Shown here: piece by piece, positions 1 through 30,532 of the stretch
Layout: the number at the start of each line of letters is the position of its first letter
How positions within the stretch are numbered: position 1 is the first letter of the stretch
Virus record (IMG/VR): IMGVR_UViG_3300017605_000613
Coordinates: 1-33,755 of that record
DNA from: a virus
DNA: 33,755 nucleotides
Reading direction: 5' to 3' (one strand)
The notes under the pieces: generated by a model
What the model saw: the letters and a program-made list of their open reading frames with translations, nothing else
Told to the model about the DNA's origin: nothing
The model's database searches: none
Made by a program: the position numbers and the translations under genes

Positions 1-91
1 ATGTGCGTAGAGCATCGAGCACAATATTTGTCGCTATGCTCACCAAGATAGTGAGAATCAGAACGGTGTTTAGAGTGTCCTCAACGAACAT
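1..91 (-). CDS. Small membrane protein, 3' part off the window
   Basis: A reading frame opens with ATG at 91-89 on the minus strand, overlapping the TGA of the SLOG-like gene (TGATG junction). It stays open to the left edge for 30 codons. The visible N-terminus is a short acidic start followed by one strongly hydrophobic stretch (VLILTILVSIATNIV), which reads as a single transmembrane helix. No family is recognised. The coupled start argues that it is a real member of the leftward operon. Its C-terminus lies outside the window, so neither length nor function can be given. Confidence 0.55.
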   Translation of the reverse strand, partial: MFVEDTLNTVLILTILVSIATNIVLDALRT

Positions 92-558
92 CATGAGTCG
101 CTCCAATTAAGAGAGCCGTATTTGTCATGCGCCTTACAGGGCTTGAATACCGCTAGACCGTCTGGCGTGATAACCCAAATAGGGCGGTCCTTCTGTTGTG
201 CATAGCGGATCGTGGTCCATGTGCCACTGCGTGGAATCTCTTTGAATCCTTGGGTCATGGCGACTAGCATTGCCGTTTTCTCGACAATGATTTTGTTACG
301 CGCCAATGTTTCGTAACCCTCGATCCGCTCAGTGCTCTTGGTGTTAGCCTGAAGCCGTTCGGTCACGTTCGTTGCTGGGTAAGCGATCGTGTAATAACCG
401 AGCCCAGTACCGATTTCAAAAGCCGCCTCATCACCTCCGACGCAATCCCCATGGCGGAGTACGTTGCCTGGGAACCAATACACAGTCAACAGAGCTTGAA
501 GTTTCCTCCCTTGCTGTGCTGTGATCCCGTGTCGAGTGGCGGTAATTCCGATTTCCAT
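91..558 (-). CDS. SLOG-superfamily (LOG/DprA-like Rossmann) protein
   Basis: This 155-aa protein has the layout of the SLOG superfamily, Rossmann-like folds that bind nucleotides, nucleotide-derived ligands or ssDNA. Visible elements are a first strand GITATRHG (residues 3-10), a glycine/acid-rich loop HGDCVGGDEAAFEIG (36-50), a third strand KIIVEKTAMLVAM (89-101) and the characteristic RSGTW turn (110-114). The turn is followed by a helix and strand ending in RPIWVITPDG. The start is supported by GAAGGGCAG upstream of the ATG. It lies at the distal end of the replication arm, 10 nt after a small ORF. The fold is a motif-based reading. The ligand and role (nucleotide sensing, DNA processing or counter-defence) are inference. 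Confidence 0.7.
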   Translation of the reverse strand: MEIGITATRHGITAQQGRKLQALLTVYWFPGNVLRHGDCVGGDEAAFEIGTGLGYYTIAYPATNVTERLQANTKSTERIEGYETLARNKIIVEKTAMLVAMTQGFKEIPRSGTWTTIRYAQQKDRPIWVITPDGLAVFKPCKAHDKYGSLNWSDS

Positions 559-567
559 TGCTGCCCT

Positions 568-798
568 TCAGTTTAGGTGGTTACGACGGTAACTGTTGTA
601 CAAGCTATATTGGATTTGCTGTGCCCAGGTCATCGCGCTAGTGATGCTGAGTGCATGTGGGGTTTGGTGCAGTCTCGCAAACTCCGCCATGGGGACTGTA
701 TGGCCCTTTGGTACTCCTGTAATCGATAGGGTTATTGATTGCAGGATGGTCAGCCTCTGTTCGTCCCTCATCCTGTTTCTGTGGTAGTGATGGTTCAT
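568..798 (-). CDS. Hypothetical small protein overlapping its neighbour
   Basis: A 76-aa frame from ATG at 798 (GAGGAAGG lies about 11 nt upstream). A later ATG at 771 is also possible. Its stop lies 10 nt before the start of the SLOG-like gene, the spacing expected in this operon. The C-terminal half has ordinary globular-protein composition (for example VPMAEFARLHQTPHALSIT). It overlaps the 638-940 frame by about 160 nt in another phase, so either two overlapping genes exist or one of the two is spurious. No family is recognised. Confidence 0.4.
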   Translation of the reverse strand: MNHHYHRNRMRDEQRLTILQSITLSITGVPKGHTVPMAEFARLHQTPHALSITSAMTWAQQIQYSLYNSYRRNHLN

Positions 799-940
799 CT
801 TCAATAAAGCCTTCCTCGATAACCACATCTGTATTGACGTCCACCAGTCGCCACATATTGTCAGGCATGTCTTCAACCAGGGCAACGCTTATTCCGGTAA
901 GGTAGCTTATGGAGGCACCACCAAACCATGATATCTCCAC
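638..940 (-). CDS. Hypothetical acidic protein
   Basis: A 100-aa frame starting at GTG 940, which overlaps the end of the upstream 57-aa frame. The N-terminal 50 residues look like a compact small domain (ISYLTGISVALVEDMPDNMW, then a valine-rich strand and an acidic stretch). The C-terminal part, rich in Pro, Asn and His, looks disordered. It overlaps the 568-798 frame in a different phase. No family is recognised. The real product may end earlier or be continued differently. Confidence 0.5.
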   Translation of the reverse strand: MEISWFGGASISYLTGISVALVEDMPDNMWRLVDVNTDVVIEEGFIEDEPSLPQKQDEGRTEADHPAINNPIDYRSTKGPYSPHGGVCETAPNPTCTQHH

Positions 941-1080
941 TTCAGTCCCGCCTTAAATTTCAAATGGATGATGCACATTTTTATTCCGGTCATCACACCT
1001 AGCTTGCCCTTGTTGTCTCTCCATCGCTCAGCGCGCACCTTGTTATAAAGGGTTTCGAGCAATGTGATAGCTTCTTCCAT
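907..1080 (-). CDS. Hypothetical 57-aa protein directly after the polymerase stop
   Basis: The ATG at 1080-1078 abuts the TAG stop of the polymerase fragment (TAGATG), so it is probably read by reinitiation. The product is basic, with an amphipathic N-terminal helix (EEAITLLETLYNKVRAERW) and a short hydrophobic stretch (MCIIHLKF). It shows no similarity to the fingers or palm of a family A polymerase, so it is not a frameshifted continuation of the upstream gene. It ends with TAA at 909-907, inside the next frame. No function can be assigned. Confidence 0.6.
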   Translation of the reverse strand: MEEAITLLETLYNKVRAERWRDNKGKLGVMTGIKMCIIHLKFKAGLKWRYHGLVVPP

Positions 1081-2316
1081 CTAATCTTGCTCCTTGGTCG
1101 GTAGCTGCTGGAAAATGCCCGCACTCATCCGGCCAGTTCTGGCCGCAAGAGAGTTAATGGAGGGGTGCACCCTGTCGTTGATGTCCTTCTCCCGCAGCAT
1201 GCCCGCAGCGTAAACCTCAGCGCGTTTAGTGAGCCTTCTGGCTGTGAGGATGTAGCGCACCAATCGCCGAACATCGCGGTTGTCCGACGTGAGCAGGCTT
1301 TCGAGCACAGTATTGTTGGTCTGCCATTTACCATGAGGGGTTTTGTGTGTTAGCTCAGCCCCAAGCTCGATAAGGGTTTTAGCGATTTGGAGACCAGAGT
1401 TTATGTTGTAGCACCCGAGGTTTGCCGCTAGGTCAAGGAAGTGAGCGGCACGCCGGTTGAGTGCGGAACGATAACGTGTGAGGTATTTGACATCTATGCG
1501 CATGCCTCGGCGTTGCAGTCGGTCGCAGATTTCATCAATTTGCAAATCCCTGTCATACAGGCCGTTTGCACGACTGTATGTGTGTTGGTTGTACTGCCAT
1601 AGGCGGTAAGCCAGAATGGGGTCAGCCCCCGCGTAGGCAATATAGGCGGGGTGCCGGATGTCTTGCAGTGCCCATCCTTCCGACATCAACGCCTTGCGTG
1701 TTTTAGGCTGCCCCTTACGGGGACCGGATTTGTAGAATTCACCAGGCATTGGCACCATGATTTGCTTGAAGGACTGTTTTAAGGCAACCTCCCATTTCCC
1801 CGCTGAGGGATCAATGTGCGCCATGCACTGATCCTTCAAGCCCAGATCTACCCCGCCTTCCTCCGCCTTCCTGGGCTCGTGATGGTGCGCGGTAATGAAA
1901 GCCTCAGAGCGAACAACCACCTTGGACTCATAGCCCAGATATATATCCACACAACGAACGTCGTGGGGACCGTTGTACCCGATCCAGTCGATACCGAGTG
2001 ACCAGATTGTTTCAATGGCAGAACGGAATTTGGCAGGGAACACGAAACTTCGCACAGCGTCACCAAGTTGAAAAGTGCGCAGCCTCCACTGCGGAAGGTA
2101 GCAGTTCAACTCTGTGGATTCCGTGTCCATGCCTAGCTCCTGCCCTACATGCCGTCTAGCCCAATTGACAGCGCGCTTGGCATCGTGCTTGTCCTCAATG
2201 AAGTGAAAGCTTATCTTGTCGCCCTGCAATCGATCGTTGATTGTTAACAAGCCACTCACCCAACTTCGCCCAGTGCTTTTCCACGATCGGCTGTGAAGCC
2301 TTGTTACGTAATGCAT
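1081..2316 (-). CDS. Family A DNA polymerase, 3'-5' exonuclease and thumb only (truncated before the palm)
   Basis: The 411-aa product carries the proofreading exonuclease domain of PolA-type polymerases. Exo I is DTE (D64, E66), Exo II is N115-x3-D119 and Exo III is Y228-x3-D232. A thumb-like helical region follows (about 250-385), with the family pattern YNINSGLQIAKTL and the TGR motif (residues 394-396) in LAARTGRMSAG. It ends four residues after QQLPTKE, where a full polymerase would continue into motif A (DYSQIE), the O-helix and motif C. These are absent from the downstream frames inside this window. The first ATG overlaps the glycosylase gene by about 120 nt, so a later non-ATG start near 2197-2260 is quite possible. 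The catalytic half may be a separate gene left of position 1, may follow an intron, or may be lost. Confidence 0.85.
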   Translation of the reverse strand: MHYVTRLHSRSWKSTGRSWVSGLLTINDRLQGDKISFHFIEDKHDAKRAVNWARRHVGQELGMDTESTELNCYLPQWRLRTFQLGDAVRSFVFPAKFRSAIETIWSLGIDWIGYNGPHDVRCVDIYLGYESKVVVRSEAFITAHHHEPRKAEEGGVDLGLKDQCMAHIDPSAGKWEVALKQSFKQIMVPMPGEFYKSGPRKGQPKTRKALMSEGWALQDIRHPAYIAYAGADPILAYRLWQYNQHTYSRANGLYDRDLQIDEICDRLQRRGMRIDVKYLTRYRSALNRRAAHFLDLAANLGCYNINSGLQIAKTLIELGAELTHKTPHGKWQTNNTVLESLLTSDNRDVRRLVRYILTARRLTKRAEVYAAGMLREKDINDRVHPSINSLAARTGRMSAGIFQQLPTKEQD

Positions 2317-4041: not shown

Positions 4042-4428
4042 TTAGCTTTCGCTAATGGCAGCGCCTATTTCAATGAAACTGTGGTTTGGTTCCTCAGAAG
4101 GCAGCATCTCAGCCATGAGGACAAGCCACGCAGCGAAGCGGTAAGCCTGTTGCCTAGTGGTGAACTGTGGGAAAGCGACGGGACGTACGGTGTTCATCTG
4201 AAGCCCAAGGCCAAACTCATTGAAAGTTTTGACCTCGATAGGCTGAGTGTCCGCTAGATCCTCTGCTGTCTCGCTGGCTGCTTTGCCGGCACGGTCTAGT
4301 GCCTCCAAGGCGTTTGCGGCTTGTTGCATGTGGTCAGCGTTGCCGACAACCACCATTTGGTTGGTGGAAGGCTCACGCTCGGGTTCCTCTGGGAGGTCAC
4401 CCTCTTTATAGAATTTGGCCTTAGGCAT
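4042..4428 (-). CDS. Hypothetical protein
   Basis: A 128-aa protein whose ATG overlaps the stop of the SSB-like gene (TGATG). The N-terminal 60 residues are acidic and Ala-rich and probably form a helix. The C-terminal 60 residues look like a small folded domain, with FPQFTTRQQAYRFAAWLVLM followed by a short acidic helix and FIEIGAAI. Similar compact TRxQAxRxAAWL domains occur in small actinophage proteins of unknown function (recollection, not a search result). Coupling to the SSB-like gene suggests a role around ssDNA or replication. Confidence 0.75.
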   Translation of the reverse strand: MPKAKFYKEGDLPEEPEREPSTNQMVVVGNADHMQQAANALEALDRAGKAASETAEDLADTQPIEVKTFNEFGLGLQMNTVRPVAFPQFTTRQQAYRFAAWLVLMAEMLPSEEPNHSFIEIGAAISES

Positions 4429-4988
4429 CAGAACGCGTCCTCTTCTTCCTCGTCATAATCGCTGTCTTCGTCGTCGGAGTCGTCCTCTTCGTCAAATTCC
4501 TCGTCTCCGTCCGCCTCTTCCTCGATCGGACCCACCCACCCGATTTCCTTCGGGTACTTGTCAGCGTTGTCGCCTCGATTGTCCTGAAGCTGGCCAAGGA
4601 ATATTTGCTCCCCGTCGTTCTTCCAGCTACCGATTTTCTTGACGTTGCCGTCCTCATCGGTGATGGTGCGCGTACGGAATTCCCGATCCGTAACGCCAAT
4701 GGCATCAAGGAAAGGCACGTATTGGAAGGGGGTTGAGTCGGCAATCACCATCAATTTGCCGTTGGTGTAGCCGCTGAATTTCTTCTCCGCCTTGTCACGA
4801 GCAACAAGCCTAAACGTCGCGCGTAGTTGGGGGTTTTTCTGCTTGGTACCTGAGACGTACACCAGGCGGGTAAGCTGCCACTGGTACACACCATTGTCAG
4901 GAAGCTTGCCGGTATAGGGCTTGTAACCGGACTCACGATCGTAATCGTCGATGACTCCTTTGGAGAGTCCCCAATCCACAGTTGGCAC
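4428..4988 (-). CDS. Putative ssDNA-binding protein with acidic tail
   Basis: A 186-aa protein with a beta-rich, aromatic N-terminal domain (about 1-155; GVYQWQLTRLVYVSG, LRATFRLVARD, TPFQYVPFLDAIG) and a highly acidic tail from about 156 that ends in DAF. An OB-like body plus an acidic tail with a terminal Phe is the layout by which SSB proteins recruit partners. The position directly after the Sak4-like recombinase (14 nt) supports this, since the pair is commonly adjacent in phages. It starts at GTG 4988 with AAGGAAA upstream. The exact family was not identified, so ssDNA binding is an inference from architecture and context. Confidence 0.7.
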   Translation of the reverse strand: MPTVDWGLSKGVIDDYDRESGYKPYTGKLPDNGVYQWQLTRLVYVSGTKQKNPQLRATFRLVARDKAEKKFSGYTNGKLMVIADSTPFQYVPFLDAIGVTDREFRTRTITDEDGNVKKIGSWKNDGEQIFLGQLQDNRGDNADKYPKEIGWVGPIEEEADGDEEFDEEDDSDDEDSDYDEEEEDAF

Positions 4989-7773: not shown

Positions 7774-8562
7774 TCAGAAGAGAAATTCGTCGTTATCAGC
7801 CTTTGCGCGGCGTGCGGTAGGAGCGGCCTTCTTCGCAGGGGCAGCCTTCTTTGTGGCAGTTTTTCGCGCTGGTGCAGCGGCCTTTTTAGCAGAAGCACGC
7901 TTAACCGGTGTTGCCTTCTTGGCTACGGCCTTTTTAGCGGGGCTACCAGCGGTGCGGGCTGTCGAGCGCCGAGAGCGTGCCGGAGGGGAAGGCTCCTCTT
8001 CGGTCTCCTCATCCTCGAAATCGTCGTCTTCCTCCTCTTCCTCAAATTCCTCGTCTTCGTCCTCTTCTTCCTCGTCGTCGTCAAACTCTTCGTCGGAGTC
8101 TTCTTCCTCAAATTCCTCGTCTTCGTCCTCTTCGGTCTCCTCCTCAAATTCGTCTTCCTCTTCCTGCGCTTTGGAAGAGCGACGCTTTGAGGCAGGGGCA
8201 GCCTTCTTGGCCGGAGCCTTACGAGAACGGACAGAAGTTTCCTCTTCCTCGTCCTCATCAACATCCTGACCCTTGGCCTTGGGACCACGCTTTTTAATTC
8301 CGAATTCCTCGCGCTTCGCCTCAAGGAAGTCACTTTCCATGAAGGAAGTGCGTGCAGTAAGAGCAAGGCGGATTCCGGCAAGGAAGGCCGCGCTAGGGCT
8401 GTCCGCCTCCTTGGGGTTATAGCCAATCTCCCGCACAATGAATGTGGCAAACCAACGGTGATAGTCGGTTGGCTCCTTGTCGCCAAGAGCGGCAAGCTTA
8501 GGATCACGCTTTGGTGTGGCAGGAGCTTTGGCCTTGCTTCTCGTAGTTCTGGCTGGCGCCAT
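7774..8562 (-). CDS. Histone-like basic/acidic/basic protein
   Basis: A 262-aa protein with four parts: a basic N-terminal tail (1-22); a small folded domain (about 25-95; TDYHRWFATFIVREIGYNP, LAGIRLALTARTSF); a long Asp/Glu tract (about 134-190); and a C-terminal lysine/alanine-rich tail of AKKA-type repeats (about 205-255) like H1/HupB tails, ending DNDEFLF. The start at ATG 8562 has a strong AGGAGGAAG site. The acidic tract contains a 32-bp direct DNA repeat (8036-8067 and 8102-8133, offset 66 bp), evidence of internal duplication. DNA binding or compaction is inferred from composition. It has its own promoter and operator candidate upstream. Confidence 0.75.
   Translation of the reverse strand: MAPARTTRSKAKAPATPKRDPKLAALGDKEPTDYHRWFATFIVREIGYNPKEADSPSAAFLAGIRLALTARTSFMESDFLEAKREEFGIKKRGPKAKGQDVDEDEEEETSVRSRKAPAKKAAPASKRRSSKAQEEEDEFEEETEEDEDEEFEEEDSDEEFDDDEEEEDEDEEFEEEEEDDDFEDEETEEEPSPPARSRRSTARTAGSPAKKAVAKKATPVKRASAKKAAAPARKTATKKAAPAKKAAPTARRAKADNDEFLF
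8036..8133. repeat. Direct repeat inside the acidic tract
   Basis: A 32-bp stretch at 8036-8067 recurs identically at 8102-8133, offset 66 bp (22 codons), so the reading frame is kept. It encodes the repeated EDEDEEFEEE-type acidic block of the histone-like protein. Such in-frame repeats can vary in copy number between relatives. Confidence 0.7.
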
Positions 8563-8584
8563 GTGTAACTTCCTCCTAGAATCA

Positions 8585-8603
8585 GTTTGACGCAATGTCA
8601 AAC
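8585..8603. promoter_or_regulatory. Operator-like palindrome GTTTGAC-N5-GTCAAAC
   Basis: A perfect 7-bp inverted repeat (8585-8591 and 8597-8603) with 5-nt centre lies between the predicted -10 and the ribosome binding site of the histone-like gene. It covers the expected transcription start. A dimeric repressor bound here would block transcription, which makes it an operator candidate. A weak RNA stem is the alternative. Confidence 0.55.
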
Positions 8604-8651: not shown

Positions 8652-10586
8652 TTATCGACTATGTTCAATTACATATCTCAGGTAGTCTACTCCCCTCCGC
8701 TCATCGAGCAGTCTGTATGAGTCATGGGCCAATTCCTGGTTTGCTACAGCTGTTCCCACATCCACAGTACCGACTGACCGTAGGTAGTAGTAATAACATT
8801 GACGAGGATTGCTGACTCTGTGCGTGCGGTCTTCCGCCTGCTGCTGCTGGCTAGGAATTCTTGTCTCGGAAAGGAAAATAGTACGTGAGGAAGAGTCAAC
8901 CGTGATAGCCGTGCCGCCTGCTTTTACGTTCAGCATCAGCAGGTGTTCATTACCACTGCTATTGAAGCGCTCAATAATCTTTGCTCGTTTATGGGCACTG
9001 GCCACCTTGCCGGAAATGGCTGCACACAAAGGTTTTCCCGGTTTGGTCTTAAAATGCTTTTCCAACTGCTGCATGAACAACTCAAGCAGGCTCGTGTAAA
9101 AGCTGACGAATACAACTTTGTCAATAGGATTTTGTGGGTAACCCCACTCCTCCAAGGTCTCGACTACCCAACGGAATTTGTTAGAGGGCAGCCCAGGGCG
9201 GAATTTCTGCCTTCTGTCCCCGCTTGGGAGCTTTGTCCAGTAAACGTCACCGTAGGAGCAGGCAAACTGCTTGAGACGAGTCAACTCCGACAGCGCGGTA
9301 ACCGCCATCAGGCGTCCGGACTTCAAGTCAGCTATGGAACCCTTCAGCATCTGATCGTAAGCCTTGGCCTGCTTCCCTTCCATCTCAAGCCAAATACCCA
9401 CAGGGCTAGTTTCGTCATGAGGGTCGAGTGGTGTTCCCACATCAATCTTGGGTGGTAGATCCTTGGCAACTTCTAACTTGGTCCGGCGTAAAGCTATGGA
9501 GGACAACGAATCCCAAAGCAGGGGTTCACGCTCTTTGATGAACTCGCCAATCTCGTAACCGTTATATCCACCCTTGCGCCAGAACAACTCTGCCCATCGA
9601 TGCAAAGCGGAATACGTTGCTCCGTCAAGCCAATTCAGCGTCCCCCAAAGATTATAAGGTTTGTCGTCCATCGGTGTTCCCGTGAGCGCGAGCTTGATAC
9701 CGCCAGCACGAACCTTCAACCGGTCCATGCCGACACGCCGCTGAGTGCGTACGGCATTGTTCCGGATAATTAGATTGTCGTGAGATTCGTCATTGATTAC
9801 CGCACCCCACTCAACCTCAAACAGCTTGGGGAACCTGGGAATCTCAGTCCTAACCGTTTTCGGCGTTTTCGGGTGGCCACAGCTCAGTATCCGGCGTGTC
9901 CTAGTCGTGAGTGAACAGCTTTTGTCACAACGGTGGCAAGTGAGCATCGTTTTAATCATGACCATCTCAGGGTGCACGATGACCCATGTGTGCTCATCCA
10001 TGACTGTCCGCTGCATGCGATAAGCCCGCTGTGCGTGTCCCTCAGCGAACGTAATTGGTTTATGCCACCTGGGCAGCCATCGGCGGATTTCGCGCCACCA
10101 GACCGGCTTAGAGGCGGTTTTAGGGGCAATAATCAGGTAGGGTCCGGGAACCTGTGCCTCAAGGATTCCGCCCATGGCTATCAGAGTTTTGCCCAGGCCA
10201 GGTTCATCGAAAATCCCCGTAGCGGGATTGTCGGCAACAAAGCGCGCCCCAACGCGCTGGTATTTCCGTCGATTCATTGCCTTGTACAAAAAAGGTGCGG
10301 CTTTCTTCAGATGGTAGAGCTTGGCGTCGGAGGAGGCAGCCAGCTTGGCCATGCGATCCCGAGATGACCTCACACCGGTTGCCCAACGCCGGAGTTCCAT
10401 ACCAACACGCAGGCGCTTGCCAAATTTCTCTTGCAAGAGCTTGCATGTTTCATAGTTCAGTGGCACAGTCCATTGTCCTGAAACGGATTCGTAGGCTCCG
10501 GGAATTGCCGACCGAAAGCCAGGAAGCGGACCATCCGTATCCAGGACGATCCGCTTACCCCTTTTCTCGATGTGAATTAAATTCAC
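8652..10586 (-). CDS. SNF2-type DEAD/H superfamily 2 helicase
   Basis: A 644-aa helicase. It has an N-terminal accessory region (1-110), motif I DEPGLGKT (127-134), motif II NDESH (265-269), motif III LTGTP (301-305) and motif VI QQQQAEDRTHR (580-590). Motif V-like KAGGTAITV lies shortly before motif VI. This is the SNF2/HepA type common in phages, acting as a DNA translocase or helicase in replication or recombination. Between motifs Ia and II is a Cys-rich insert (C217-x2-C220-x3-C224, C236-G-H238), probably binding zinc. The start is GTG 10586 with GAGGA 6 nt upstream. Loss of the third residue of a canonical DEAH box (DESH) still fits SNF2-like families. Confidence 0.88.
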   Translation of the reverse strand: MNLIHIEKRGKRIVLDTDGPLPGFRSAIPGAYESVSGQWTVPLNYETCKLLQEKFGKRLRVGMELRRWATGVRSSRDRMAKLAASSDAKLYHLKKAAPFLYKAMNRRKYQRVGARFVADNPATGIFDEPGLGKTLIAMGGILEAQVPGPYLIIAPKTASKPVWWREIRRWLPRWHKPITFAEGHAQRAYRMQRTVMDEHTWVIVHPEMVMIKTMLTCHRCDKSCSLTTRTRRILSCGHPKTPKTVRTEIPRFPKLFEVEWGAVINDESHDNLIIRNNAVRTQRRVGMDRLKVRAGGIKLALTGTPMDDKPYNLWGTLNWLDGATYSALHRWAELFWRKGGYNGYEIGEFIKEREPLLWDSLSSIALRRTKLEVAKDLPPKIDVGTPLDPHDETSPVGIWLEMEGKQAKAYDQMLKGSIADLKSGRLMAVTALSELTRLKQFACSYGDVYWTKLPSGDRRQKFRPGLPSNKFRWVVETLEEWGYPQNPIDKVVFVSFYTSLLELFMQQLEKHFKTKPGKPLCAAISGKVASAHKRAKIIERFNSSGNEHLLMLNVKAGGTAITVDSSSRTIFLSETRIPSQQQQAEDRTHRVSNPRQCYYYYLRSVGTVDVGTAVANQELAHDSYRLLDERRGVDYLRYVIEHSR

Positions 10587-10594
10587 GATGTTCC

Positions 10595-10732
10595 TCAGTC
10601 GCCGTAAAAGTTGATGTAAGGTGTCTCACCTGTCTTCAGGGTGACTACCATGGCGTAAATCAAGCCTGCCAGTAGGACCATGTTCAGCACGAAGCGAGCG
10701 TTGCGTACGTTCGCGTCAATCAGTTTCCACAT
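10595..10732 (-). CDS. 45-aa single-pass membrane protein
   Basis: An ATG at 10732, 2 nt after the upstream stop, opens a 45-codon frame that ends just before the helicase start (6 nt). It has a basic N-terminus, one transmembrane helix (FVLNMVLLAGLIYAMVV) and a short polar tail. GGTAAGTG upstream is a modest ribosome site. Tight fit in the operon supports it. Function is unknown. Confidence 0.65.
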   Translation of the reverse strand: MWKLIDANVRNARFVLNMVLLAGLIYAMVVTLKTGETPYINFYGD

Positions 10733-10734
10733 CG

Positions 10735-11652
10735 TCACTTACCTACCTTCAGGAGCTGGCCTAGCTGCACTAAACGGAAATTTCCGCCTGCACCATCTAT
10801 GAATTTGATCAATCGCTCGGAGGGGATTTCGTGCCCGGCACCATCGAAACGGTGCTCAATGGTAATTGTATCGTGCCCACACAGCCCATGCTCTTCTTTG
10901 CCGGAAATCCGATTCCACCAGGTGACCTTCATGCCCACCAGATGAGCGGCTACTTCGCTGTCGGTTGCCCAGTCAGGGTCAAAAGGGAGATTGTGTGGAG
11001 GAACCTCGCCGTTGTGGGACGGCATGTCCACTGACCACAGAGAATAATTCTGATCAATGGCCACACCGTCTTTCCATGCGATCGAAAGCAGTTCATCCCC
11101 ACGATGCGCGCTGATGGTAACCAATTCACCCTTGGCAGAACCCTGGACATCCCAACCTTGCGCGACAAGCTGAGCCTTGGCCTTCTGCGCCAATTCCAGG
11201 CTCTTATTACGTCCGTGAGCGGTTTTTACCTCATCCGAGGCACGGAACTTGGGCTCAGCCTTTTTAGGCGCTGTATGGCTTTCTAGTGCCTTCATAGCAT
11301 CCTTGGCGACAGACTCAGTGACAACCGCTTGCATCTTTTGTGTCTGCTTCTCAAGAGCAATAACCAGTTCCTTGCGACTGGTCAATTTCGCAATAGAGCT
11401 ATGGTGCTCCCGAGCATAGGCATGAAGCTCAGGGAGTTTCATGGATCGGAAATCCGGAGCACTGGAAGCCTTACTGGGATTACGGTGTTCCCTTACGGCA
11501 GCGTTCGCAGCAAGCACCTTGGCGGAAACAGCTTCCTTGGTGCGCACTGCGGTACAGGGATTATCAGCGGTGCACCGAACCGGAGGGCGCCCGGGCTTGG
11601 CAGCGATAGTGAAAACTCCGCCTTGGTGCTCACGGCACGAAATCTTTTTCAC
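10735..11652 (-). CDS. Hypothetical protein with AT-hook-like and Rho_N/SAP-like segments
   Basis: A 305-aa protein starting at GTG 11652 (GGAAGGA upstream). Residues 6-33 hold C6, H9, C27 and C33 around KPGRPPVRC, an AT-hook-like GRP core that could touch the minor groove. Residues 71-103 (MKLPELHAYAREHHSSIAKL, then TSRKELVIALEKQ) match the helix-turn-helix pattern of Rho_N/SAP/HeH nucleic-acid-binding modules. The C-terminal 150 residues form an unrecognised domain with CGHDTITIEHRF. It heads the DNA-metabolism arm, upstream of the helicase. DNA binding is inferred from the two short segments and is uncertain. Confidence 0.65.
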   Translation of the reverse strand: MKKISCREHQGGVFTIAAKPGRPPVRCTADNPCTAVRTKEAVSAKVLAANAAVREHRNPSKASSAPDFRSMKLPELHAYAREHHSSIAKLTSRKELVIALEKQTQKMQAVVTESVAKDAMKALESHTAPKKAEPKFRASDEVKTAHGRNKSLELAQKAKAQLVAQGWDVQGSAKGELVTISAHRGDELLSIAWKDGVAIDQNYSLWSVDMPSHNGEVPPHNLPFDPDWATDSEVAAHLVGMKVTWWNRISGKEEHGLCGHDTITIEHRFDGAGHEIPSERLIKFIDGAGGNFRLVQLGQLLKVGK

Positions 11653-12670: not shown

Positions 12671-13450
12671 TTATTTCGTGATCTGGGCAGTGACAGTCAT
12701 AGCAGGGACGGTGAATGTAAGATTGTCGGGCAACTCTCCGCCATGCTCGCTATCAGCAAGATGGGTAGCGAGCGCTCTTGCAGCTGCAATCTCTCGGAGC
12801 CTTGCATCAAGCGCGTAGTACTCTCCTGCCCAATACTGTGTACCGCCGTTCTCTGCGTTGCCGCAACCGATTTGGAGCAATCCAGCAGCTGTCTTCGCGC
12901 CGTAGTCATCATCGGTCACCAACAAAGGCCCTGCGCCCATATGTGTCAGAACCTCATTGATTTGTAGTTGCAGGACAACGACTCTGCCCGTTCCCTTATC
13001 GCCCTTCTGGCAAAACATCTCTTCTCCTCCTGCTGTAGCAAACCAACCGGATGCGTCCTCATCGTTTGCAGCCCATCCGGAAAAATGAATGTGGTCAGAG
13101 TGTGGGTCGTCAGAGTTATCCCTACGCACCCAACCGTTTGAGCGTGACCATTGGTAATTCAAGAAATTGATGTACCACAGCCGCGCTCGCAATCGTGCAT
13201 CGGCAAGGATTCTGTCAATGCTTGTTTGGGCTTGTGTCCTGTTGAACGCCGGACCAAGCATTACATCAACTGCCCGATGCTCCGGCACACTGTCAGGGTC
13301 AGTCTGTGCTGACCTGCTTCCAGCTGTGTCGTCCTCATTGTGATCAGAGATTCTTAGCTTGTGTGCCTCATCGCCAATGCCATAAACGACAACCCCGGGG
13401 TATTCCCGCTTGTAGTCGTTCGTCAGCGCTTGCATGTTCCTTGCACGCAT
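12671..13450 (-). CDS. Endolysin: M15-type peptidase plus peptidoglycan-binding domain
   Basis: A 259-aa lysin that would cut peptidoglycan cross-links. The zinc site of M15 (VanY/D-Ala-D-Ala or L-Ala-D-Glu) peptidases is visible as SDH (H37), AVD (D62) and HSDHIH (H120, H122). A C-terminal domain follows (about 148-195, GDKGTGRVVVLQLQINEVL and DDDYGAKTAAGLLQIG) with the pattern of PG_binding_1 repeats, then a Thr-rich tail. I start at ATG 13450, because TAGGAG lies 6 nt upstream; GTG 13456 overlaps that site. No signal peptide is seen, so export needs the neighbouring holin. Confidence 0.85.
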   Translation of the reverse strand: MRARNMQALTNDYKREYPGVVVYGIGDEAHKLRISDHNEDDTAGSRSAQTDPDSVPEHRAVDVMLGPAFNRTQAQTSIDRILADARLRARLWYINFLNYQWSRSNGWVRRDNSDDPHSDHIHFSGWAANDEDASGWFATAGGEEMFCQKGDKGTGRVVVLQLQINEVLTHMGAGPLLVTDDDYGAKTAAGLLQIGCGNAENGGTQYWAGEYYALDARLREIAAARALATHLADSEHGGELPDNLTFTVPAMTVTAQITK

Positions 13451-13458
13451 GAGCACTC

Positions 13459-13779
13459 CTACAGTATTTCCGAGGGGGCACCGGACTTACGGATTCGCAT
13501 TGCTGGAATCCTTGGCCCGTAAACCCTTTCGTCGTTGGACGTGTTGACAACTGTGACGGGAACCGCACCTTTGTAATCCTCTTGGACAAGACCGGCCGCG
13601 TCGTGCCACCATGCCCGCGTCACGCGGTTGGGCATGTCCACAAGCAGATCATCAGCGTCCAACTCGTGTACTTTCTGTTGCTCCACAACGTATTTTCGTG
13701 CGGAACCCAGCACCATTGCCCGTGTGAGATTCTGTCCCTCGAAGATGAGCTGTCCGGGAGCCTTCCTGAAGATTTCCAT
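13459..13779 (-). CDS. Hypothetical tail-region protein
   Basis: A 106-aa protein starting at ATG 13779 in a TAATG overlap, with GAGGTACC as ribosome site. It is rich in short beta strands (GQLIFEGQNLTRAMVLG, then VPVTVVNTSN) and ends basic. It lies between a minor tail gene and the endolysin. The family is unknown; a small distal tail component is possible from position. Confidence 0.65.
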   Translation of the reverse strand: MEIFRKAPGQLIFEGQNLTRAMVLGSARKYVVEQQKVHELDADDLLVDMPNRVTRAWWHDAAGLVQEDYKGAVPVTVVNTSNDERVYGPRIPAMRIRKSGAPSEIL

Positions 13780-25275: not shown

Positions 25276-26613
25276 TTACGCGAGCTTGACGAACGGCGAA
25301 AGCGTGTTGGCGGAACCGTTTTGCGGCGTGATCGCTGCCTGAAGCCACGGACGACCATCAAGGCGCTCGATAACGCGAATCGCGGTAACATCCGTGTTGA
25401 ACCGAAAATCCTCCGACTGACGCGCGCTCATTGCCTGGCGGTCACCAATGAGGTACTGGCCGAAGTCAACAAAATTGATGTCACCAGCGGTACCCAGTGC
25501 GCGCGCTTTCTCAGACACGATAAGCGGTGCACCAAGCATGCTCATAGGTGGACGTGCCGACGCGTCCGGGAAACCCCCACCACCAATCCAGATTGGCGAT
25601 GTGCCACCCGCAATTGTCATGTTCAGAAGATTCGGGAGCGCGTCAGGGGAAACAACCCACACCGCGCGCCCCAGCGACTGCGGAAGCATACGGGAATACA
25701 TGTTGGTAACGTCAAGCCACTCGATCGCGTTACCACCAGCGTTACGGGCAACACTAACAGCGGCAGGAGCGTTCAAGAACCCCAGAGGTTCACCAACCCC
25801 ACCACCTACAAAGAACGCGACGTCCTCAAACCAGGCAATCGCCTCAGGGAACATCGTGTCAATGAAAGTGGTGTACGCCGGACGAGAATCCCGAATCAAT
25901 TCATTCGGAACCTCAACGTACAGTGTCAGCTTGTGTGCCTCAAGCACGATCCGCCCGAAGCGCGGACGTGACTCCGTAAGGGTTGCACCCTCCTCAGTCC
26001 AGAAACCGATGATGCCACCAAAGACCGATGACACATTGGATGTCGAGTCCACAGACGGGATCGGTACACGTAGCGAGTCCATGGGCATGACCCGCGCACG
26101 GCCGCGAACCAACGCAGTCTCAAGCGACAGCTGAAGAACCTCCGCGCGAAGGTTCTCGGGAATGAGAAACCCACCGTCTGAAGGCTCAAGTGAGCTTGCA
26201 ACGTTCTGCAAGCCTTCCAATTTCTGAGAAAGCTCGACCGTCTTGAAAGCGTGGTTGCTGATTCCGTGGGTCAGTCCGGCCAAGCTGTCAAAGGTGCCGT
26301 CAAACTTGGCACCCGCAGCACCCTTGTTGTACAGCGTGTTTGTCTTGACCGCACGGCGTGAATTCGGATCGAAATTCAATCCGGGACTGCCCGTTGCCCC
26401 GTGCTCGCGAAGGTAATCGAGCATGAATTTCTCGTGTGCTTCTTTGTTCTGCTCAAGCAACGAAGGATCTGTCTTCAGGCGGACATTGATGTGATCTTCC
26501 ATCCAGTCGGCATAAGCCACTGGACCCTCTGACATCAATTCCTTCATGGCCTTAGGGTCGGTAAGGACTTCCCGCAATTCCTCGCCATTAATTGGCATTG
26601 CCACTCTTGGCAT
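25276..26613 (-). CDS. Major capsid protein, HK97 fold
   Basis: A 445-aa protein with GGAGAGAAA before the ATG. The N-terminal about 110 residues are charged and helical, consistent with a delta/scaffold domain removed by the protease encoded just upstream. The remainder has the HK97 pattern, with a P-domain helix and loop GFWTEEGATLTESRPRF, LVRGRARVMP, AIAWFEDVAFFVGGG and PLGFLN, then an A-domain with WVVSPDALPNLLNM. It is the most probable main shell subunit. No separate scaffold gene is seen. Confidence 0.88.
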   Translation of the reverse strand: MPRVAMPINGEELREVLTDPKAMKELMSEGPVAYADWMEDHINVRLKTDPSLLEQNKEAHEKFMLDYLREHGATGSPGLNFDPNSRRAVKTNTLYNKGAAGAKFDGTFDSLAGLTHGISNHAFKTVELSQKLEGLQNVASSLEPSDGGFLIPENLRAEVLQLSLETALVRGRARVMPMDSLRVPIPSVDSTSNVSSVFGGIIGFWTEEGATLTESRPRFGRIVLEAHKLTLYVEVPNELIRDSRPAYTTFIDTMFPEAIAWFEDVAFFVGGGVGEPLGFLNAPAAVSVARNAGGNAIEWLDVTNMYSRMLPQSLGRAVWVVSPDALPNLLNMTIAGGTSPIWIGGGGFPDASARPPMSMLGAPLIVSEKARALGTAGDINFVDFGQYLIGDRQAMSARQSEDFRFNTDVTAIRVIERLDGRPWLQAAITPQNGSANTLSPFVKLA

Positions 26614-29083: not shown

Positions 29084-30532
29084 TTATCCAACGATCGTAA
29101 AGCGCGCTTTGCCCTTGAAGTCAAGATGATTGGTAAAGTATCTATCGGTGTCCATGCCGTGGTCATTTTCCTTTATAGGTTCATCTTTTTTCTTACCATC
29201 CGGCGTTTTTTTCCAGATATAGCAAGGAAACTCCTCTACGGAGCAAGTGGGGTACATCAACTCGACCAACGCAGGATCACGCTCTACCAACGCATCTTCC
29301 ATGTAGTACAGGCGAGCTTCGTTGCTGGCGTTGAGTTTCCATCGCTGCTTTGTGAGGTCTATTCCCTCCGCCACATGCTTGATAGCTGCCACCGTTCCCA
29401 AACCCGTTGCCTTCTCAAAGGTCCGGCGAGCCTGCGCATCATGGTCGCAGATAATGGCTGTCGGTTTGGGCTCTATCCACACGGTTTCCTCACGCCGACG
29501 CTCCACACGGTTGATGTGGTCATACCATTCAACGACGTTAGTCTTGGTGACTTGCGCCATGATGGTTTCCGCGTGCTCTGCCACTGTTCGATCAGTCATG
29601 TAGATCTCGCGGTACATATATCCCACACCGTCTTCGTCTACCGCATACCACTTACAGACAAACGGATGCACCAGACCGAAATCTATTACCCAGTACCGTT
29701 CCCACTCCCACGGCAAGGGAAGCTTGTTACCCTCATCGTCGTAATCCCATTGCAGGATATGGTAAGCAGGGTCAAACTCTTCGTAGATCTGCCCTTCGGC
29801 GGATACCCATTTGCCATGGCGCAAGCGAGCTTTTCGGACACCGGTGAGATTGTCTAGCCTCTCAATGTAGGCAGTACCGCGCTCGGTGAGCCTATAGGTA
29901 ACACCGTCCGGTGTGGTGATCTCGTCGAACAGCACAGGGTTATCTTCGTGGCGCGACTCGATGAGCACACACTTGCCGTCATTGCAGCGCAGCTTCAGCC
30001 AATGAGTTTCGCCAGCGGGGTTGCAATCCATCAAAAGCTGCTGGAAACCAATTTGCCAGTTACGCAAACGAGTGTTAAGCGCTTCGAGGTCAGCGATAGT
30101 TAGCTCAGTGGCTTCCTGAACATAGATAATGTCGTACTCCGATGACATGATACGGTCAGGGTGGTTCATCCCGCCTATCGTGATTGTAGAGCCGTTTTTG
30201 AACCGGTATTGAGGAGCTTCTTGAGCACTACCGCCGTAGTAGGCCAGATCTCCTACCGCCATCGCCTCTTTCGCGACATAATTTCGCCATGTAACCAGGG
30301 CGGTAGAGCCGAGTGAGGACAAAGTTTTTCGTACAATCAAGGCTCGCACGTTAGGGGTTGCCAGACAGACCATGAGGATTTTTTCAAGACAGCCTCGGCT
30401 TTTACCGGTGCCAGCTGGACCGGAAATTAAAAGCTCCTTGTCCTTCCTGTGGAATATCGTCTTACACGCACCCCGTGGAGAGTAACGATGCTCAATTATC
30501 TTGCTCGAGCGTGCCCTAGTCTTGGCTGGCAT
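29084..30532 (-). CDS. Terminase large subunit
   Basis: A 482-aa packaging motor. Walker A is GPAGTGKS (38-45), Walker B/catalytic Glu is in YDIIYVQEATEL (133-144), and a coupling-motif-like MDCNPAG follows at 168-174. The RNase H-like nuclease has VIDFGL (D284), ICDHDA (D363/D365) and a final acidic NDHGMDTDRY near 465. The gene starts in a 17-nt overlap with the 61-aa gene upstream. Domains and length are normal, so it should be functional. It cuts and translocates DNA with the small subunit at 31.0-31.5 kb. Confidence 0.92.
   Translation of the reverse strand: MPAKTRARSSKIIEHRYSPRGACKTIFHRKDKELLISGPAGTGKSRGCLEKILMVCLATPNVRALIVRKTLSSLGSTALVTWRNYVAKEAMAVGDLAYYGGSAQEAPQYRFKNGSTITIGGMNHPDRIMSSEYDIIYVQEATELTIADLEALNTRLRNWQIGFQQLLMDCNPAGETHWLKLRCNDGKCVLIESRHEDNPVLFDEITTPDGVTYRLTERGTAYIERLDNLTGVRKARLRHGKWVSAEGQIYEEFDPAYHILQWDYDDEGNKLPLPWEWERYWVIDFGLVHPFVCKWYAVDEDGVGYMYREIYMTDRTVAEHAETIMAQVTKTNVVEWYDHINRVERRREETVWIEPKPTAIICDHDAQARRTFEKATGLGTVAAIKHVAEGIDLTKQRWKLNASNEARLYYMEDALVERDPALVELMYPTCSVEEFPCYIWKKTPDGKKKDEPIKENDHGMDTDRYFTNHLDFKGKARFTIVG

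Follow-up and report, generated by a model that had tools for sequence, protein, structure and literature searches.

Textbooks describe family A DNA polymerases as enzymes of a single chain. A virus record from IMG/VR (IMGVR_UViG_3300017605_000613; 33,755 nucleotides, analysed over its whole length and called the window here) carries a minus-strand gene of this family that stops before motif A, which poses the question where, if anywhere, the rest of the enzyme is encoded. We consider it probable, at roughly 88%, that this gene encodes the N-terminal subunit of an obligate heterodimeric replicative polymerase, whose palm and fingers subunit is encoded by a separate gene downstream. The relevant features of the gene are:

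1081..2259, minus strand: predicted N-terminal subunit of a family A DNA polymerase (3'-5' exonuclease, thumb, first palm strand), from Pfam, PHROG, alignment and AlphaFold2
1093..1137, minus strand: T-G-R-M-S ... Q-Q-L-P-T-K, polymerase-site residues at the C-terminus of this N-half, from the alignment of 14 split N-halves
1081..1083, minus strand: TAG stop at the conserved split point (TAG, TGA or TAA in relatives)

A preliminary description of the sequence had recognised a family A polymerase with intact exonuclease motifs, thumb and TGR region, and this identification holds. The open reading frame (ORF) at 1081-2316 is present with its ATG start; alignment with relatives indicates that translation probably begins at a GTG at 2259 rather than at the ATG at 2316, giving an N-half of 392 residues. 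Residues 282-399 of the ORF match positions 7-123 of the 381 positions in the Pfam DNA_pol_A profile (E=2.3e-11), and the ORF also matches PHROG 17, DNA polymerase (7.5e-29). The exonuclease motifs DxE (D45, E47), N96..D100 and Y209..D213 are complete and are invariant in 14 of 14 aligned N-halves. As expected of a PolA member, the thumb is followed by a T-x-R motif and QxLP, and here T375, R377 and Q384-T388 are invariant across the same 14 proteins. The N-half ends in TGRMSAGIFQQLPTKEQD, followed by TAG. The stop does precede motif A, as had been described, although it lies two residues beyond QQLPTKE and not directly after it. A hidden Markov model search found no palm sequence in the whole record, neither in any frame after the stop nor as a remnant in positions 1-1081.

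The missing part is found in related phages. The closest relative, IMGVR_UViG_3300006847_000019 (L002), encodes an N-half that is 75-76% identical to that of the window (10043-11221; Pfam positions 3-137) and ends at the same residue (QQLPTKDQE, TGA). On the same strand, 1.6 kb downstream, a separate palm ORF of 282 residues (12821-13669; Pfam positions 137-380) carries DYDQIELR, KNVNFGWLYG and HDE. Wider scans of IMG/VR contigs, together with a tblastn/ORF script, gathered a set of such split genes. Both halves are present in 12 contigs (L002, L010, L011, L012, L091, L093 to L098, L174), and in each of them the palm gene is intact, on the same strand and downstream of the N-half, across a gap of 272-1,600 nt. 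The break falls at the same residue in all split relatives, and the gaps vary in length and content, being tightly packed with differing small ORFs.

The separate palm gene of these relatives thus carries motif A, the O-helix and motif C (HDE), which the window contig ends too early to include. The Asp and Glu of motif A and the Lys of the O-helix are invariant in all 12 palms, and HDE is present in every palm that reaches it, one being cut by the contig end. The palm protein usually begins with M[KR]LLS..[IV]RR, from an ATG or GTG start; its Leu3 is written CTC, CTA, CTT, CTG or TTG, and its Leu codons show many synonymous changes. Since an in-frame stop lies 6-150 nt upstream of every palm frame, the palm appears to be started independently. 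The window contig ends about 1 kb beyond the N-half stop, before a palm gene could appear, as do two further contigs (L175, L179). The preliminary description had proposed a two-subunit polymerase with its palm gene left of the window; this arrangement is what the 12 relatives show, and we infer that the palm gene of the window phage lies beyond the contig end.

In the palms of L170, L173 and L176, the Phe position of the O-helix is occupied by Tyr (NVTYGWLFG). The Phe at this position in E. coli PolI selects against dideoxynucleotides, and T7 polymerase has Tyr there. A Deltaproteobacteria metagenome-assembled contig (L188, 2-1656) with a PolA broken near the same point was not counted as split, as its two frames overlap and the break is probably a frameshift.

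In a tree of 12 split and 84 uninterrupted homologues, the split ones fall on one side of a single branch (Shimodaira-Hasegawa-like approximate likelihood ratio test, SH-aLRT, 100), which fits a single split event; this is a quick tree with some long branches, and its internal order is less certain. Purifying selection acts strongly on both halves. The ratio of non-synonymous to synonymous substitution rates (dN/dS, Nei-Gojobori) is 0.07-0.11 for the closest pairs in both halves, and 0.074 for the N-halves of the window and L002, values that are rough because synonymous sites are near saturation.

Structure prediction indicates that the two halves tile one enzyme. AlphaFold2 models of the window N-half and the L002 palm reach a predicted local distance difference test score (pLDDT) of 94.3 and 95.2, respectively. 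The N-half model aligns with residues 325-684 of Klenow (1kfs) and the palm model with residues 683-928 of the same chain, which puts the junction at residue 683/684. Sequence profiles agree, with the N-half covering 12-357 and the palm 364-603 of the Klenow fragment, and the halves fit end to end with almost no residue lost. This places the cut a short way into the palm, after the QxLP strand and before the one leading to motif A. It is therefore not the clean split at a domain boundary that had been envisaged, since the N-half retains the T-x-R motif and the QQLP strand. The model of the N-half is least certain over its last 30 residues, which comprise the TGR/QQLP tail with its active-site contacts; this would be expected if the tail docks on the partner palm.

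Could the two ORFs nevertheless yield a single chain? They might be the exons of one polymerase gene, interrupted by a self-splicing or a bipartite, trans-spliced intron. Phage polymerase genes are known intron sites, the authors who described the split PolA of the OM43 phage MEP401 suspected an intron there (PMC10580990), and our halves fit together almost seamlessly. A group I intron or intein scar had also been suggested for the window. However, Rfam scans revealed no group I or II intron at E<=1 in L002 11100-12950 or in the left end of the window (1-1250), and none was found in MEP401 either. The gaps are unlike in length and genes and filled with tightly packed small ORFs, and a Pfam scan of ten gap ORFs detected no homing endonuclease, only YspA-SLOG and VapB-antitoxin-like proteins. 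The palm moreover starts from a codon of its own with in-frame stops ahead of it, and its N-terminus is conserved as protein sequence. An intron is thus improbable. Joining at the protein level is a related idea: the PolB of Nanoarchaeum is a split polymerase whose parts are joined by a split intein. Protein trans-splicing of this kind, or as in the PolB of phage MIJ3, is known for other split polymerases (MIJ3: PMC6892783), but here the N-half stops 3-15 residues past QQLPT, and in the palm the first conserved arginines come about 8-13 residues after the start. Such short tails and N-termini leave no room for intein halves, and no intein N and C halves flank the break in the 14 aligned N-halves or in the palms, which makes a split intein extremely unlikely.

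Other explanations would dispense with the palm gene or with the stop. The window alone shows only the exonuclease-thumb half, which folds well by itself, and a decayed enzyme kept for proofreading had been considered; in such a case the N-half would be a retained proofreading or repair exonuclease, the polymerase part having been lost or become irrelevant. Yet every relative with a long enough contig has the palm gene, and the N-half keeps its thumb and the T-x-R and QQLP residues of the polymerase site invariant at a dN/dS of 0.074. We regard this explanation as very unlikely. Finally, single metagenome contigs can contain errors, and a false stop from sequencing or assembly could break an ordinary gene. 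This is refuted by the 12 relatives: in these independent contigs the same split recurs with a separate palm gene, the stop codon is of three kinds and other genes occupy the gap. In the window, none of the frames continues into a palm beyond the stop, and the chance of such an error is negligible.

We therefore favour a two-subunit polymerase. In this model, the N-half and a C-terminal subunit comprising most of the palm and the fingers (motifs A, B and C) would be made independently and would associate with no splicing step. The palm protein would have its active site completed by the TGR/QQLP tail of the N-half, whose exonuclease would proofread. No other replicative polymerase (PolB or PolIII alpha) was found in any of the 15 records examined.

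Several points weigh against the heterodimer. For the window phage itself, the palm gene is placed past the contig end on the strength of its relatives, and every split genome is a metagenome fragment, with no cultured member. Physical association of the subunits and polymerase activity of the complex are inferred from the sequences. L002 also encodes a Prim-Pol/D5 protein, probably a primase-helicase, which could supply some synthesis. Joining at the RNA level by a ribozyme outside the known families is conceivable, as Rfam holds known families only and the scans covered the L002 gap and the window end.

The split clade has two further traits, one of which is an insertion in the fingers:

L002 12821-13669, roughly residues 118-175 of the palm protein: fingers insertion

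The fingers segment comprises 57 residues in 12 of 12 split palms, as compared with mostly 13-14, and at most 22, in 41 uninterrupted homologues. This corresponds to a helical insertion of about 43 residues that has equal length in all split palms and is absent from the 41 others. The second trait is a family of small proteins (about 75-125 residues; M[ST]R[DE]xLIxE ... LKxxI) encoded between the polymerase halves. Eight genomes seeded its profile (L168, L169, L170, L172, L173, L174, L176, L177), a ninth has a clear match (L098 7449-7862, E=5.7e-18) and a tenth a marginal one (L096/L178; L178 9204-9461, E=0.014), so that the count of at least 10 of 12 split genomes includes this marginal case. 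The window, L002 and L171 gave no match to the protein, its gene was found near no uninterrupted homologue, and it has no convincing Pfam or PHROG match. One could envisage a polymerase that works only as a three-protein complex, in which the gap protein, together with the fingers insertion, would hold or regulate the halves. If true, such a complex would represent a new type of quaternary structure among family A DNA polymerases, but we consider it unlikely. Because the clade arose once, the association of the gap gene and the insertion with the split does not by itself show a functional link. In L170 (9418-9807) and L171 (9184-9525), the gap between the two halves contains a gene for a VapB-antitoxin-like protein (PF23719), with no evident toxin to accompany it.

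The genes next to the window N-half are:

907..1080, minus strand: small ORF of 57 codons that begins directly after the N-half stop (TAG ATG); 57% identity over 42 residues with the ORF at the same place in L002
91..558, minus strand: ORF of 155 residues with a weak DprA-type Pfam match; syntenic with L002 11370-11855, 46% identity
2195..2845, minus strand: uracil-DNA glycosylase gene, directly upstream and overlapping the polymerase gene (Pfam UDG, 1.6e-25)

The ORF at 907-1080 is not a polymerase, and follows the stop without a gap, both as previously described. The left edge of the window is syntenic with L002 as far as about L002 11,855, and the L002 palm begins at 12,821; the window therefore most likely ends within the gap between the polymerase genes. 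The uracil-DNA glycosylase gene is part of the same replication block as the polymerase gene. A similar ORF lies upstream of the N-half in L002 (by Pfam) and, by eye, in L010, L011 and L012. The L002 copy (9469-10065) looks degenerate, with GSSPSATD in place of GEAPGAQE, whereas the window copy (2195-2845) is intact. Elsewhere in L002, a transfer RNA match (1157-1256) spans 100 nt against a 71-position model and may have a long variable arm or an intron.

Two further window proteins have long acidic Glu/Asp runs (4428-4988 and 7774-8601) and adjoin Sak4-like and exonuclease genes; the former resembles a single-stranded DNA-binding protein with an acidic tail, and the latter is also Lys/Ala-rich. 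The capsid and terminase (25276-26613 and 29084-30532) have their nearest counterparts in Streptomyces phage Dagobah (46%) and, in the case of the terminase, in Thermobifida phage P1312 (48%); this points to an actinobacterial host. By tblastn, neither the complete Dagobah sequence nor the 15.0-60.3 kb stretch of P1312 that was searched yielded PolA halves. Assigning a host through prophages in bacterial genomes was rejected, the best palm matches being just 23-30% identical.

Taken together, these phages form a clade whose polymerase is divided between two genes that are not neighbours, with the cut falling within the active-site domain and the halves maintained under strong selection. The clade offers a way to test if a replicative polymerase functions as a heterodimer, and for what reason, and naturally split DNA polymerases would serve as conditional or assembly-dependent tools.

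The nearest annotated relatives are single-chain family A polymerases of actinophages (e.g. Arthrobacter phage MaGuCo gp40), which have the same domain order and are 30-33% identical in the N-half and 38-45% in the palm, but are encoded by one continuous gene and are without the 43-residue fingers insertion. Phage polymerase genes interrupted by group I introns, for which PMC10580990 cites Bacillus HMU phages and Bastille, likewise have a broken frame; in the present clade, the stretches scanned in L002 and the window show no sign of an intron, and the palm ORF brings a start codon of its own. In jumbo phage MIJ3, a replicative polymerase is also encoded in pieces, with intein blocks and an HNH endonuclease (PMC6892783). 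That enzyme belongs to family B, and neither intein blocks nor an HNH endonuclease were found here.

The OM43 phages MEP401 and MEP402 (Zobellviridae) have a split PolA with a small ORF between the halves, for which the authors proposed a possible intron and left the function open (PMC10580990). As here, PolA is distributed over two ORFs and the break comes after the TGR strand and ahead of motif A; the exonuclease and N-terminal PolA (gp13) are followed by a small ORF (gp14) and C-terminal PolA (gp15). The cut residue is not the same: in MEP401 it lies about 15 residues later, nearer to motif A, so that gp13 keeps GEIKTLFLSRYGE and gp15 begins MILNADAKALEW. The lineage is distant, with about 21% identity in the N-half, and the gap measures 236 nt compared with 272-1,600 nt. 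Kinship of gp14 with the small gap protein was not supported (hhalign probability 5%). Given the later cut in MEP401, the two splits are very probably independent, and within the open-licence PMC literature our clade is a second case of split PolA, with stronger conservation evidence.

By analogy, the closest functional parallel to the proposed heterodimer is the N4 RNA polymerase II, in which gp15 provides the thumb and DX2GR and gp16 the palm and fingers (motifs A, B and C), and whose purified heterodimer is active (PMC4496689). The fold is related, and the split separates a thumb/TGR part from a palm/fingers part between the same motifs as here, DX2GR and motif A. In contrast to the enzyme proposed here, it is an RNA polymerase without a proofreading exonuclease, and it is not a close homologue. 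This clade, MEP401 and the N4 RNA polymerase II thus represent three splits in the same short stretch that links the TGR strand to motif A, suggesting that this site is permissive, and perhaps favoured, for division of the polymerase.
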